DNA of 64,000 nucleotides. Origin: Bradyrhizobium sp. WSM3983 (lineage in GTDB: Bacteria; Pseudomonadota; Alphaproteobacteria; Rhizobiales; Xanthobacteraceae). Below are positions 1 to 52,028 of this stretch, one piece after another. The notes below the pieces were generated by a model that saw only the letters and a list, made by a program, of their open reading frames with translations, made no database searches and was not told where the DNA came from. The position numbers and the translations under genes were made by a program. Numbering within the stretch: position 1 is the stretch's first letter; each line of letters opens with the position of its first letter. Where the stretch lies: assembly GCF_000473045.1 (NCBI RefSeq), contig NZ_AXAY01000001.1, positions 330,931 through 394,930 on the forward strand. Reading direction: 5' to 3'.

Positions 1-1649
1 CGGGAGAGTTAGCCGCGGAGCTTGCCCGCTATCACGAGGACAGCGAAGAGCTGTTTATTCAGCGATGCGTCGAACTACATAACGAGAAGAAAATCAATCT
101 CGTTGAACTTCCCCCGCAACCCGGTTTCAAAAAAATTACCGGCCACGACTTTTTCACAGCTCAACACTTTTACTGTGAAGCCATACCAAAGCTCGATGCC
201 GATGTCGTCGCACTCATGGAGTGCTGCCAATCGCTAATCGAACAGGCAGGCGCGGACGGTGCTGCGGGTCAGCCGAATGAAGCATTTCGGCTATGGTGCC
301 AAAATAATCCCGCGGAAGGCGCGCGAGTGATTAGCAAGGCCCGCGAAGGCGATAACCTAGCGAAACGATTTGTCACATTTGCCCTGCAAGCCTCGGCAAA
401 TATGGAGACCGCGGCAGATTTTGTGCAGTCGTATGACGATGAGCGTCGACTGTTCGGGATGGCAGCATTGGGACGTATGCCCATGGCTGACGCATCCAAA
501 GCACACCAAGCGACACAAGTACTGGAGCCTTTTCTGGTTGCGGTAGACGATGACAATCTCCGCGCAAACGCACTGTTCGCCGCGTTTGATGTGCTCAAGA
601 AGTATAATGATGTTGACAAGGCGAGCAACTTTATCGAAGCCGCAACGGATAAGCCGGGGCCCGCAACGTTGCATGCGTTAGCTCAAATCATTTGGCTCCA
701 CCACAAGCTGATGACTTCACAGACGATCGAGAAGGCGCTGACTGCGTTACAGGCGATCCAATCTGATCACAAAGGCACGCTTCGAGCGCTTGATATCGGA
801 CTGAACCAGTTGCTTGCTGGTGGTAATCGCGCTGCTGTCATAGATTTTCTGACGACAACGCTTCGCAACGACAAAATAACACTAGAAGATTTTCCGACGA
901 CGACTGGCGAGCTAAAGCGAAGTGATCGTCGTCGCCTCTACGAAATCATCGTGCGATGGTTCCTCTCTGGCAGTCATGCACTGTGTGACAACGTTGGGAA
1001 TCTCATAGAGTTTGAGGATAAGAACACGTTTGACGCCAGCATCGTCGTCCCCTCTGAATTGACGGCAGCGCATCAAGCCTTCTTGTGTCGTAAAGCGATT
1101 GGCATTCTATTCACGCGCCCTGTAACCTGCTGCTCGATCCTTGTTTCCGTGCTTCGAGGTGGTGATAAAGAGGTCATAGAAGAGGTTGTCGACTTGCTAT
1201 TCGAGCCCATGCTCGTGAACTATAGCGGCAAAGCACTTGACTACCTCAAGACGATAGCAGTCGAGGACCCAGCTTACGCCAGCGTCCAGACTGCTTTAGA
1301 TCGTCATCGGGCGTACCTTGCCGGCCTTGAAAAGCCAGGATTAATCAAAGAGCTACACCCTTCCGATTATCAACGCGACGTCGTGCGGCAACGTACATAC
1401 GATGAAATGCGTGCCGCGCAGAAATCGGCTGAGCAAGAGTCCGTGCTGCTTAGCGTCGTACATCGATCTACCTTGCTTTATGGCAAGCGATCACTCACCT
1501 ATGTCTTTGACGACGATGGCGGCCGTCGAGCAGTATCGCTCGATCTACATTCTGTCGGCGTGTCATTCGAAATGCCCCGCCAAGACGTGCTCGATCCGGT
1601 AGGCCTGGATTTCATGCTCCGCGTTTTTCGCGTGGAGAAGATACAATGA
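1..1649 (+). CDS. Helical-repeat-like protein of unknown function, 5' end outside the window
   Basis: The frame is open from base 3 with no start needed, so the protein begins left of the window; 548 residues are visible. An ATG at 216 is internal: the open frame upstream of it continues without a stop. I recognise no catalytic motif. The visible part is a run of amphipathic helices rich in Leu, Ala and Asp (e.g. DNLRANALFAAFDVLKK), as in HEAT/ARM-type solenoids; the last 70 or so residues look like a small beta-rich domain. The stop overlaps the next start (ATGA, 1646-1649), so the two proteins are translationally coupled and probably act together. Base composition is visibly lower in GC than the genes after 3.5 kb, which suggests acquired DNA. 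Function unknown. Confidence 0.8.
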   Translation, partial: GELAAELARYHEDSEELFIQRCVELHNEKKINLVELPPQPGFKKITGHDFFTAQHFYCEAIPKLDADVVALMECCQSLIEQAGADGAAGQPNEAFRLWCQNNPAEGARVISKAREGDNLAKRFVTFALQASANMETAADFVQSYDDERRLFGMAALGRMPMADASKAHQATQVLEPFLVAVDDDNLRANALFAAFDVLKKYNDVDKASNFIEAATDKPGPATLHALAQIIWLHHKLMTSQTIEKALTALQAIQSDHKGTLRALDIGLNQLLAGGNRAAVIDFLTTTLRNDKITLEDFPTTTGELKRSDRRRLYEIIVRWFLSGSHALCDNVGNLIEFEDKNTFDASIVVPSELTAAHQAFLCRKAIGILFTRPVTCCSILVSVLRGGDKEVIEEVVDLLFEPMLVNYSGKALDYLKTIAVEDPAYASVQTALDRHRAYLAGLEKPGLIKELHPSDYQRDVVRQRTYDEMRAAQKSAEQESVLLSVVHRSTLLYGKRSLTYVFDDDGGRRAVSLDLHSVGVSFEMPRQDVLDPVGLDFMLRVFRVEKIQ

Positions 1650-3361
1650 AATTGTTGTTTCGCAGTTACTTGGCTTCTTTGAGGGAGCGCGGCGAGCTAG
1701 ACGCAATCCTGCCGGACTTGCTCAGCGAGCTTGGATACCACGTTTATTCTAGACCGCAGCGCGGGACCGCGCAGGCAGGGGTAGACATTGCCGCCGTGGG
1801 ATTAGATGACGACGGTAAGAAGAAGGTCTTTCTATTCTCCGTAAAGCAGGGCGACTTGACTCGGCAGTCGTGGAATGACGGCAGCGCTCAAGCGCTTCGT
1901 CCGTCTCTCGATGAGATACTGGATAATTACATTCCAAACAGAATTCCCAAGAGGTACCAGAAGCTCAAAATCGTTATCTGTTTGGTCTTTGGCGGCGACA
2001 TGCAAGAGCAGGTGCGGGGTACTGTCAACGGATACACAAGGCGAAACTCAAACAAGAAGGTCTCGTTCGATGAATGGAACGGGGACAAGCTAGCCGGCCT
2101 TCTACTTCAGGGGGTGCTGCGTGAAGAGATAATGCCCAAAGCCCTTCGATCGCACTTTCAGAAGTCGGTTGCCCTTGTGGACGAGCCAGACATTGCATAC
2201 CGTCATTTCTCGCGCTTGGTGCGCGAGCTGACCGGCCTAGCCAATAGCGACAAAGCAAAGATAAGGATTGCTCGACAGCTCTACATTGCTACTTGGGTTT
2301 TGTTCGTTTGGGCGCGCGACATCGGGAACGTCGAAGCCGCATATCAGGCCAGTGAACTTCTTCTGTTGACCCTTTGGGACTTGGTTCGGCCCTTCATAGG
2401 TAAGAAGCGCAGCGCCGCTGGCAAAGCCATAACGTTGGTCCTGCACTACGCAATACAGATGCATCTCGCGATAGCGTCGGAGTTGGTTGAGCGGAAGATA
2501 TTGCCCCATGTTGGAATACAAGATGGGATCGCAATGGCAGTCCAAGGCCGATCATCCGCCGACATAAACCTCAAGCTGTTTGATACTCTCGGCCGCATCG
2601 CCTTGACAGGACTGTGGGTTCATTGGCTTGTCGAACGATACACAGACGAGAACGCACGCGCAGAGGCCAGACTGAAAATAGCTCAATTTACCGAAATGGG
2701 CTTTAAACTAATCAATAATAACAGGACGCTTTTTCTTCCCCTGCAAGATCAACACGGGGTTGAAGTGGCGATGTTTTTGCTTTTTGTCACGGCAGTCAAC
2801 GGTAATCGGCACGATGCCCATGCTTGGCTACGCGAGATGGTCAACCGCCTTTCGTACAGCATCCGAACGCACGGGAAGTATCCCTGTGTTTTTCTTGATT
2901 ACCGCGCTCTCGTCGCTCACCCGAGGGAAAGGACGGAAGAATATCGTAAAGAAGCAACCGCGGGATCGATCCTGATCCCCATCTTGGAGGCCTTCCTATC
3001 AGCATTGGAAAGCAAAGAGGCACTGGAAAAGCTGCTTGATCTGAAGGCGAAAGAACTGGCGCACTGCACACTTCAAGTATGGCTGCCCGACGCTTCCAGC
3101 GAGGAAAATCTGTACAACGGAAAGCACGACCACGGTCTTACATTGACTGATTTGCCACTGTCCTCAACAGGTAACGAGCTCGTCAGCTTGATAAAGAATG
3201 CGTGCGATCAGACAGAGGGATATGGCTCCCTGTCTGCTATTGTGACTGGGTATTGGCCTATCATCATCACTGCCTGTCGCCACCGCAGAATGCCCATACC
3301 GCCGCAGATGCGGATTGATATGGTCTACGATCCGTCGATCGAGACCGAGAATAAAGGATAA
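1646..3361 (+). CDS. PD-(D/E)XK nuclease-fold protein with long helical C-terminus
   Basis: 571 residues. The first ~150 residues fit a restriction-endonuclease-like fold: helix with E28 (LLSELGY), then GVDI with D47, then the strand FLFSVKQGD with K67, i.e. the E...D...xxK layout of Mrr-like nucleases. The remaining ~400 residues are mostly helical and carry no motif I can name. It overlaps the upstream helical-repeat gene by 4 bp (ATGA). A nuclease joined to a large helical region and paired with a solenoid-like partner resembles the architecture of anti-phage or plasmid-defence operons, but that is inference. No methyltransferase or helicase is adjacent within the window; upstream genes are not visible. 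Confidence 0.8.
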   Translation: MKLLFRSYLASLRERGELDAILPDLLSELGYHVYSRPQRGTAQAGVDIAAVGLDDDGKKKVFLFSVKQGDLTRQSWNDGSAQALRPSLDEILDNYIPNRIPKRYQKLKIVICLVFGGDMQEQVRGTVNGYTRRNSNKKVSFDEWNGDKLAGLLLQGVLREEIMPKALRSHFQKSVALVDEPDIAYRHFSRLVRELTGLANSDKAKIRIARQLYIATWVLFVWARDIGNVEAAYQASELLLLTLWDLVRPFIGKKRSAAGKAITLVLHYAIQMHLAIASELVERKILPHVGIQDGIAMAVQGRSSADINLKLFDTLGRIALTGLWVHWLVERYTDENARAEARLKIAQFTEMGFKLINNNRTLFLPLQDQHGVEVAMFLLFVTAVNGNRHDAHAWLREMVNRLSYSIRTHGKYPCVFLDYRALVAHPRERTEEYRKEATAGSILIPILEAFLSALESKEALEKLLDLKAKELAHCTLQVWLPDASSEENLYNGKHDHGLTLTDLPLSSTGNELVSLIKNACDQTEGYGSLSAIVTGYWPIIITACRHRRMPIPPQMRIDMVYDPSIETENKG

Positions 3362-3509
3362 TTCCGGTTCGCGGTGTTCTCACCTGCGCAAGCACGGCAT
3401 TTAGACTAGGACAATCCCGTTATTGACAGTTTTGTCCACTTGCTGTGGCTCGCTACCGGGAGTCGACGGTCTCAAGCCCGGCCATCACGAAAGCGAGACT
3501 GTCTATCTC

Positions 3510-49725: not shown

Positions 49726-50583
49726 TTACCAGCGTATCGCGCCGGATGCCTGAGTACTTGGCAACCTGAGATGTTTGGGCACGATCATAATTTCTTTGCC
49801 GCTTCGCCGGACAGATGCCGCGTACCGCAATCCAAATGGACGAATAGTCGTCCACCCTCGATACAGCGACCTGATTTCAGGACAATCATCATACGTCAGA
49901 ACCCAAGCGGATCCTGGGCGGCTCCTCAGTTCGTCCGCTATCCGTACGTGATATGAAGCATCCAACGAGTTTAGATAGAGCGTCGCTCCCTTCTCATAGT
50001 AGGGAGGATCGATGAAAAAAAATACCTTATCGTGATCAAGCTGCTTAATTAACTCGATCCCATCAATGCCCGTTACCGAAATTCGATCACTGAACTCTGC
50101 GATCTTCGCGCAACGCTCGAGTAAATCGGGTTTATTATAGCGAGCGTCAATGAGCCACTCCCCGCGCTGCTTGATCCCACCGATCGGACCGCCGTTCATG
50201 ATAATCCCGGATCTATTACAGCGGTTGAGGTAGAACGCGGAAAACCCCTTCCGAAGGCGCGACACCTTCCGCCGTGACAGATAAAGCTCTCTCTGTCGTC
50301 TCCACTCGGCCATACTGACGCGTGTTTTCGACAGCAACGCAGCAAAGTCTAGTGGCTGGTGTTTGAGCGACCACCAGAACGCAAAGATCGCAGGGTCCGC
50401 ATCGTTGATGTGAATCTCAGGTGCTTCCTCTAAAGTCAAGAGATTCAGGGACGCGCCCGCCCCGCCCGCGAACGGCTCGGCAATCTGCCGATTACCGAGA
50501 TTGTTGATCCTCCGAATCTGACTAAGCAAGTTAGCCATCACAAACTTTCCGCCAGGGTATCGAAGCGGGCTGACATTCCTCAT
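49726..50583 (-). CDS. D12-class DNA adenine N6-methyltransferase
   Basis: 285 residues. SAM-binding EPFAGGAGASL (36-46, the FGG motif region) and catalytic DPPY at 192-195 (FFFIDPPYYEKG) in the order of Dam/D12 enzymes. Opening MRNVSPLRYPGGK is also typical. It methylates adenine in DNA; the target site cannot be read from sequence. Its start overlaps the stop of the ParB-like gene by 4 bp. No restriction endonuclease gene is next to it. More AT-rich than the flanks. Confidence 0.9.
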   Translation of the reverse strand: MRNVSPLRYPGGKFVMANLLSQIRRINNLGNRQIAEPFAGGAGASLNLLTLEEAPEIHINDADPAIFAFWWSLKHQPLDFAALLSKTRVSMAEWRRQRELYLSRRKVSRLRKGFSAFYLNRCNRSGIIMNGGPIGGIKQRGEWLIDARYNKPDLLERCAKIAEFSDRISVTGIDGIELIKQLDHDKVFFFIDPPYYEKGATLYLNSLDASYHVRIADELRSRPGSAWVLTYDDCPEIRSLYRGWTTIRPFGLRYAASVRRSGKEIMIVPKHLRLPSTQASGAIRW

Positions 50584-52028
50584 TTTGTTTCCTCGGCACC
50601 CGCTTCTAGCATCAGCCGAAATAGCGGCTCAGTTCGCATCCAAAATTGTAGGATCTCGCGCGGCCCAGGCAAATCGCCGGTTTGATGCACAAACGCATGC
50701 AACTCACTTATGCTGAATGGAGCCGAAGCATCGTAGCGCAACGCCTTTTCGACTCGAATAGCATCGGCTTCTGGAAGTTGCGCCTTTGCAATCTTCACGA
50801 CGGCGGGCAATATCTGCCGCATCGTTGGAGTGCCATACGCCAGCTTGCCCTTTGATCTTAGATCGGCGGTAAGCGCCGAAAGGTCTCCGATTCGATCAAG
50901 ATAATAGAATATCGAAAGCTCCAAAAAGACTCTGAGCAAGACAGATCCTGCATTCGGGAATCTTTCACGATCGAGCTTTGTCAGCTCATCACGAATGTCG
51001 ATAAGCCGATCGTTTCCAAATCGCACATGGAAGTTTTTTGGGAGAACAGTCGAGCTTACCTTCTTCCCTCGGCGCCGCGTCGCAGCAGCAGTACGAGCAG
51101 CCGTTGAAGCGACAGTCTTGCCGTCCGTTAATTCGGATGGAACGAAGGTGGCATTGCGCTTCCTTACTTTGTCCGCACCCTTCCAGCTGTCCAGGTATCG
51201 CTTGATGTCTTCGTTCTTGTTTAGCGTTCGAGACGACGCTTTCCCGGTCGCGACATCTGTCACCAAGCGCGTGAAGCCTTTCACGAATTCGCTCTTGGCC
51301 GTGCGGCCTAGAAGACCGTGGTCCGCATTTTTCTCAACAAAAAAATATTCCCGCCCGACTGAGGAGTCGAATACGCGATTCAAGGTTGTAAAAACTTTGG
51401 CTCTCGGATTATCGAGCTTTGCCTTCACCTCCTCAGGCAGCGGAAGTGCACGAGCCATATCGGCGATTGCTCGTACCTGACGGGCCTCCTGGATGTCGGA
51501 GACCGAAAAGCCCAGATCATCGGCAAGCTCGTCGTTGTCATAGCCCTCGGTGATTTTATCGAGAATGAAGCTCGCTCGATTTTCCGCCTGCCAAGCGAGA
51601 ACTGGAGTGCCGATATGCCGGCCGGCGACCTGTCGGTCGGTTGCTTTGCGGCTTGGCGCCACGGTCACAGGCACTCGGGCTAAGCTATCGGGATCCAGTA
51701 TCTTTCGTGCAAGCTTTTCAAGCTGCGCACGCGCGGGCCCTTCTAACAAGCCCGGTTCTCGAAGGCCTTTCAGCGCCGCTAGGCGCCGATTCCCTTCGAC
51801 CACAACCAGGCGATTACCTTCGTTGATCGCCAACAATGGTTCATTTGGAAAAAAACCGCGAAGGGCAATGCTCTTGGCAACCTCAAGAGCTTTATCGTGA
51901 TCAAAGAGATACTGAATGATCTCTCGCGGAGCCCTGGCGGTGATCTCACGTCCCAGTCGTGGATTTTTCGGATCGAGTAGTAAACTCGCGACACCAAAGG
52001 GCCGCGTTTGCCAATTTGCGCTTGTCAC
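50580..52028 (-). CDS. ParB/sulfiredoxin-fold protein paired with the methylase
   Basis: 482 residues. N-terminal ParB-like domain with VVEGNRRLAALKGL at 77-90, which fits the ParB/Srx nucleotide-binding box; then a helical part (DELADDLGFSVSDIQEARQV) like the ParB HTH. The C-terminal ~250 residues are unfamiliar, with an Arg/Lys-rich middle (TRRRGKKV). Co-translated with the methylase (4-bp overlap). Lies 154 bp from the 3' end of tRNA-Pro. May be a CTP-binding or nuclease-type DNA protein; exact role unknown. Confidence 0.82.
   Translation of the reverse strand: MTSANWQTRPFGVASLLLDPKNPRLGREITARAPREIIQYLFDHDKALEVAKSIALRGFFPNEPLLAINEGNRLVVVEGNRRLAALKGLREPGLLEGPARAQLEKLARKILDPDSLARVPVTVAPSRKATDRQVAGRHIGTPVLAWQAENRASFILDKITEGYDNDELADDLGFSVSDIQEARQVRAIADMARALPLPEEVKAKLDNPRAKVFTTLNRVFDSSVGREYFFVEKNADHGLLGRTAKSEFVKGFTRLVTDVATGKASSRTLNKNEDIKRYLDSWKGADKVRKRNATFVPSELTDGKTVASTAARTAAATRRRGKKVSSTVLPKNFHVRFGNDRLIDIRDELTKLDRERFPNAGSVLLRVFLELSIFYYLDRIGDLSALTADLRSKGKLAYGTPTMRQILPAVVKIAKAQLPEADAIRVEKALRYDASAPFSISELHAFVHQTGDLPGPREILQFWMRTEPLFRLMLEAGAEETK

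Follow-up and report, generated by a model that had tools for sequence, protein, structure and literature searches.

Olokun is an antiphage defence system whose founding paper, by the name under which it is cited, is reportedly Millman et al. 2022. In the passages of later papers that name it, the system is attributed to the citing paper's reference 7 (PMC10121019), recorded for its occurrence only (PMC12629846; PMC12390725), described as not thoroughly characterised (PMC12592470), or entered with its mechanism as unknown (PMC12926258). One table of mechanisms, either validated or predicted, places it under nuclease activity (PMC10855318, Table 1), and the nuclease idea for Olokun is thus already in print, as a category. 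The literature passages naming Olokun, in a coverage outside which most subscription papers fall, give no tested mechanism, no active-site residues and no short form. Here, a two-gene unit is described at the left end of a 64,000-nucleotide stretch of Bradyrhizobium sp. WSM3983 DNA (contig NZ_AXAY01000001.1, positions 330,931 to 394,930; hereafter, the window), which on sequence grounds is identified as a long-form Olokun system (OloA plus OloB). The gene pair is a further copy of a known, poorly understood system.

The first protein matches the PADLOC model PDLC03925 (OloA; E=2e-98, 329 bits, profile positions 42-594 of 596), and the second matches PDLC03926 (OloB; E=1.3e-198, 660 bits, positions 1-550 of 556). 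Both proteins thus resemble the models over nearly their full length, gene order, strand and tight pairing are likewise alike, and no difference in architecture was found in this copy. Pfam contains no family above cut-off in either protein, and Pfam and NCBIfam together offered nothing usable for either, the matches to ARM_TT21, DarC-adaptor and BadH lying far below cut-off. An earlier note, made from the letters of the window alone, had called the pair unnamed, which the match to OloA and OloB of a published system corrects. The note was right in coupling a helical-repeat protein to one with an Mrr-like nuclease fold, within what is a mobile unit of defence type. In the account that we somewhat favour, infection would be sensed by OloA, a predicted HEAT-like solenoid, and OloB would then be set free to cut DNA with its predicted FokI/Mrr-like domain.

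Pairing of the two genes is nearly universal among the loci that were examined, which are the best 80 of 95 confirmed in a scan of genome contigs and have record titles ranging from Pseudomonadota to Anaerolineales, Cyanobium, Desulfosporosinus and Nitrospirae. OloA is present at 78 of the 80, and the two loci without it begin at contig ends. It lies directly upstream of OloB in 77 of 78 cases (76 by the script's rule, to which L031 was added, where the OloB frame extends far upstream) and 1,240 base pairs (bp) away in L059. A 4-bp start-stop overlap is found in 71 of 76 adjacent pairs, and at 6 of the 80 loci one of the two proteins, OloA or OloB, is divided between two frames. Sequence distances of the two proteins are strongly correlated (r=0.94, 72 pairs; at most 0.09 in 1000 permutations), with OloA the less conserved and faster evolving partner. 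No constant third gene was seen, none among 990 neighbouring reading frames recurring at more than 6 of the 80 loci. The strict pairing, an overlap in which a possible neutraliser gene comes first, the co-inheritance and the faster evolution of OloA would also suit a toxin-antitoxin module, in which OloA inhibits OloB and, once lost or displaced on infection, leaves free OloB to cut cell DNA or RNA. Such a module is rather doubtful, as OloA, at 566 amino acids (aa), is large for an antitoxin by general knowledge, and no locus with a complete OloB was seen clearly to lack OloA, a pattern that release of a nuclease by a sensor would fit equally well.

Comparison with three empty sites defined an insert of 3,751 bp, placed inside a palindrome resembling repetitive extragenic palindromic (REP) elements, with a 7-bp TCAAGCC repeat at both sides and with an aldo/keto reductase gene to the left and a PhoD gene to the right. 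Of 60 genomes of the genus, the source genome included, 59 have a PhoD match, and the site is empty in 28 of 29 relatives, where the reductase side adjoins PhoD and the alignments end between 6 bp overlapping and 383 bp apart; in the 29th relative, a contig ends at the site. Within the insert, no genes other than oloA and oloB, and no integrase, were seen. Both genes are on the same strand, with oloA first and a 4-bp overlap, and both frames are open as the earlier note had drawn them. The oloA frame at 3-1649 (548 aa within the window) is open leftward, and the full gene starts 52 bp beyond the left edge (L002:16880), in keeping with the note's placing of this 5' end outside the window; the further genes that it thought might lie there were not borne out, since no other operon gene was found in the insert. 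Ahead of oloA no sigma-70-like promoter was seen, the single site found being on the opposite strand, versus 2.9 expected. The insert is also compositionally distinct, with a guanine-plus-cytosine (GC) content of 52.8% versus 63-64% outside and third-position GC of 55-60% in oloA and oloB versus 76-84% in two neighbour genes. The AT-richer DNA that had been remarked around the pair is thus real (52.5% GC in bases 1-3000), as the other 61 one-kilobase segments of the window have 59-68% GC except for a patch at 50-52 kb. This second AT-rich patch (50001-52000, with 52 and 55% GC) stands in GC-rich surroundings.

The closest proteins, at 93% and 89% identity, agree with an origin of the window in Bradyrhizobium. 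Olokun is uncommon in the group from which the window derives. An OloB match was found in 4 of 265 genomes of the genus, the source genome included, two of them in broken frames, and in wider samples the matches came to 6 among 297 genomes from the order and 9 among 398 from the phylum, counts that take in single fragments (L009, L183), a short form (L181) and two genomes with a second pair (L008, L182), both treated below. In the source genome itself, a decayed second oloB in two shifted frames is present on contig C40 (L152:5137-6379), and neither its nuclease domain nor any oloA was found in the surrounding 12 kb. No record of a phage collection matched OloB at E<=1e-5; because six IMG/VR viral contigs (L197-L202) carry an OloB relative, Olokun may also ride on prophages. 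A 1,488-aa protein (L041:11872-16335), with a start that is P-loop-like by eye, lies within about 200 bp of Olokun at 5 of the 80 loci, and for the L041 copy neither Pfam nor PADLOC gave a match.

Neighbourhoods of the homologues were compared with controls by counting PADLOC families matched at E<=1e-10. The 128 neighbour proteins from 75 loci (chosen from the 990 as the nearest with a length of 180-1000 aa, and no more than two from any locus) matched 342 families and the 125 control proteins (drawn from 140 frames that occupy a fixed position in 20 genomes, of which 19 belong to the source genus) matched 27, an enrichment that is only rough because families rather than proteins were counted, PADLOC models are redundant, one of the 128 test proteins is a piece of OloA, and the controls are nearly all of one genus. 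The proximity to defence genes raised in the earlier note is indicated, roughly, for the homologues; in the source genome itself the flanking genes are metabolic. These metabolic neighbours, together with umuD, which adjoins the enteric copies, are what would speak for a role of the pair in DNA repair or other housekeeping rather than defence. With so few carriers in the genus, broken frames in two of them, empty sites in relatives and defence-rich neighbourhoods elsewhere, a housekeeping role is very improbable.

Structure prediction and conservation together suggest what OloB may do. The predicted OloB model (mean predicted local distance difference test, pLDDT, of 89.5) includes the core alpha/beta restriction-endonuclease fold of the PD-(D/E)XK superfamily, as the earlier note had proposed for the second protein, and a second-look aligner found the predicted fold of residues 1-162 to be like the nuclease domains of FokI and MspJI. 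In a weak, distant profile alignment with the Mrr_cat family of type IV restriction nucleases (PF04471; 75.8%), the helix acid, the GVD motif and the lysine fall at corresponding positions. Among readable OloB sequences, D19 (87 of 87), D47 (87 of 87) and K67 (88 of 88) are invariant, so that the first aspartate (D47) and the catalytic-position lysine (K67) of PD-(D/E)XK are kept. The triad E28, D47 and K67 named in the earlier note thus stands for its last two members. E28 was ruled out as the catalytic acid because position 28 is variable (of 87 readable sequences, 60 have E and 20 have Q, while A is found in 4, S in 2 and R in one), and it is D19 that occupies the helix-acid place of the Mrr domain alignment. 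The likenesses have their bounds. Two positions before the lysine, OloB mostly has Ser, while Gln or Glu is found in most of 16 Mrr_cat sequences; OloB also differs from that family in its large helical region and its OloA partner. In contrast to the FokI and MspJI cleavage domains, OloB has no DNA-recognition domain that could be identified and no sequence similarity to solved structures at E<=1. Its helical half matches many helical proteins equally well, including 14-3-3, and no reading is drawn from this.

OloA is an alpha-solenoid of helix pairs, HEAT/ARM-like, in its predicted model (mean pLDDT 90.1), which agrees with the helical-repeat reading given earlier to the first protein; by sequence, its matches among solved structures are generic repeat proteins only. 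Conservation is higher in the C-terminal core (0.44) than in residues 1-313 (0.36), and a short form of the system retains this part alone. Plasmids of enterobacteria, Klebsiella for the most part, encode an OloB with a length of about 560 aa together with a 300-aa partner, and at the sensitivity of a DNA search the pair was matched in 2 of 5,426 E. coli genomes, both copies being the short form and homologous to the window pair. The Klebsiella partner matches C-terminal OloA only (hhalign against alignment A5: 98.2%, 241 columns), and Klebsiella OloB is homologous to long-form OloB throughout (hhalign 100%). One enterobacterial OloB is about 24% identical to that of the window. Short forms (L173, L175, L184 and L185) thus share full-length OloB homology and the 4-bp overlap with the long form, from which they differ in an OloA reduced to its C-terminal part and, possibly, in a variable preceding gene. 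Because the short form keeps that part alone, comparison of the two forms suggests that it is this C-terminal portion of OloA on which OloB depends.

Genes upstream of the short form vary. In both E. coli copies a CHAT gene lies 110 bp upstream, in two K. pneumoniae records the place is taken by a DUF6932-hydrolase protein, in L191 by a 355-aa protein without a Pfam match, and in L173 by an opposite-strand frame that resembles UmuC by eye. CHAT was considered as a third component and rejected, as it was found neither at four further plasmid records nor at L173, the plasmid gene tables being incomplete. Because it is not at these other short-form records, it is kept only as one example within a modular scheme, in which the C-terminal core of OloA would gate OloB and the N-terminal solenoid would be an exchangeable sensor, replaced in enterobacterial short forms by, for example, a CHAT protease. 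This scheme is put forward as a tentative possibility.

For the long form, the favoured account of sensing, release and cutting builds on what was observed (the family match, tight pairing, co-inheritance, insertion and invariant D19, D47 and K67) and on two predicted folds, from which we infer the three steps themselves. The variable N-terminal solenoid of OloA would act as the sensor, while its better conserved C-terminal part would hold OloB, which would stay inactive until a phage product is detected by OloA and, once released, would cut DNA. Because neither a methylase nor any further constant partner was seen travelling with the pair, activation, and not DNA modification, would control cutting, and the outcome would therefore probably be joint damage to phage and host DNA (abortive infection).

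Several observations weigh against this account. Short forms without the supposed sensor part are nevertheless kept on plasmids, where a constant third gene is not in view, so the sensor may lie elsewhere than in the N-terminal part of OloA. The nuclease match comes from a second-look aligner and a weak profile alignment, while Pfam has no family in OloB at E<=1, the score for Mrr_cat did not reach the Pfam cut-off, and Foldseek with whole OloB gave no match at E<=0.001, the first 50 matches listed being helical proteins. The neighbour comparison is rough, as described above. Finally, OloB lacks the second acid of (D/E)xK, all 88 readable sequences having S, T, V, I, C or L at position 65. OloB activity could therefore be lost or altered, and OloB is not filed as a canonical PD-(D/E)XK member; only a predicted fold and a like working are proposed. 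Serine at the second-acid place does occur in some active restriction enzymes. Taken with the lack of a Pfam match, the missing acid would accord with a dead or weak nuclease domain that binds DNA, and with an OloA-OloB complex that stops phage replication but makes no cut; this is unlikely, in that D19, D47 and K67 are invariant even at about 24% identity and are not obviously required by mere DNA binding. The atypical active site might also reflect an RNA substrate rather than DNA, which appears less likely still, since the proteins matched by fold and by the Mrr profile are DNA endonucleases.

The PADLOC OloB model also matches a different pair, of proteins of 851-862 aa and 481-486 aa (L189:4191-8166 and L190:2491-6481; also L008), and the OloA model matches one partial protein of this second pair. 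Single sequences of the second pair gave 0.1% and 0.7% against profiles A4 and A5 of the present family, with no detectable similarity. Because the second pair was matched and yet lacks similarity to the present family, the PADLOC Olokun models may, as judged from sequence, combine two systems or families. L008, initially counted among the OloB homologues (A1, row 26), does not align and belongs to the second pair; it was left out of A3, A4 and later counts.

Table 1. Coordinates of Olokun features in the window and of short-form loci.
Feature	Position	Strand	Remark
oloA, 5' end cut by window edge	1..1649	+	Predicted HEAT/ARM-like solenoid plus small C-terminal beta hairpin
OloA C-terminal core, residues about 314-558 of 566	888..1622	+	Part kept in 300-aa enterobacterial short form
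ATGA start-stop overlap of oloA and oloB	1646..1649	+	Like the 4-bp overlap in 71/76 adjacent pairs
oloB, 571 aa	1646..3361	+	PADLOC OloB E=1.3e-198, profile 1-550 of 556
OloB residues 1-162, predicted restriction-endonuclease-like (FokI/MspJI/Mrr-type) domain	1646..2131	+	
D19 codon, invariant helix 2 acid	1700..1702	+	87/87; aligns with helix Glu of Mrr domains
D47 codon (GVD motif)	1784..1786	+	87/87
K67 codon (xVK motif)	1844..1846	+	88/88
W144-N-G-D147 motif, nuclease domain end	2075..2086	+	W144 89/89, D147 88/89
OloB helical region, residues 163-571	2132..3358	+	No confident known fold; only tied helical matches
Window part of 3,751-bp insert (insert start L002:16652)	1..3471	.	Comparison with empty sites
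TCAAGCC repeat, right copy (7 bp), in REP-like palindrome	3472..3478	.	Left copy L002:16645-16651
Short-form Olokun loci	L173:2096-4674, L175:8001-10579, L184:6001-8579, L185:4501-7091		

The window copy is a clean, minimal two-gene Olokun unit with a precise empty site, and it names D19, D47 and K67, rather than E28, as candidate residues for mutation. The short form of OloA indicates the part of this protein that is likely to touch OloB. If the modular scheme is true, one OloB nuclease would serve several triggers.
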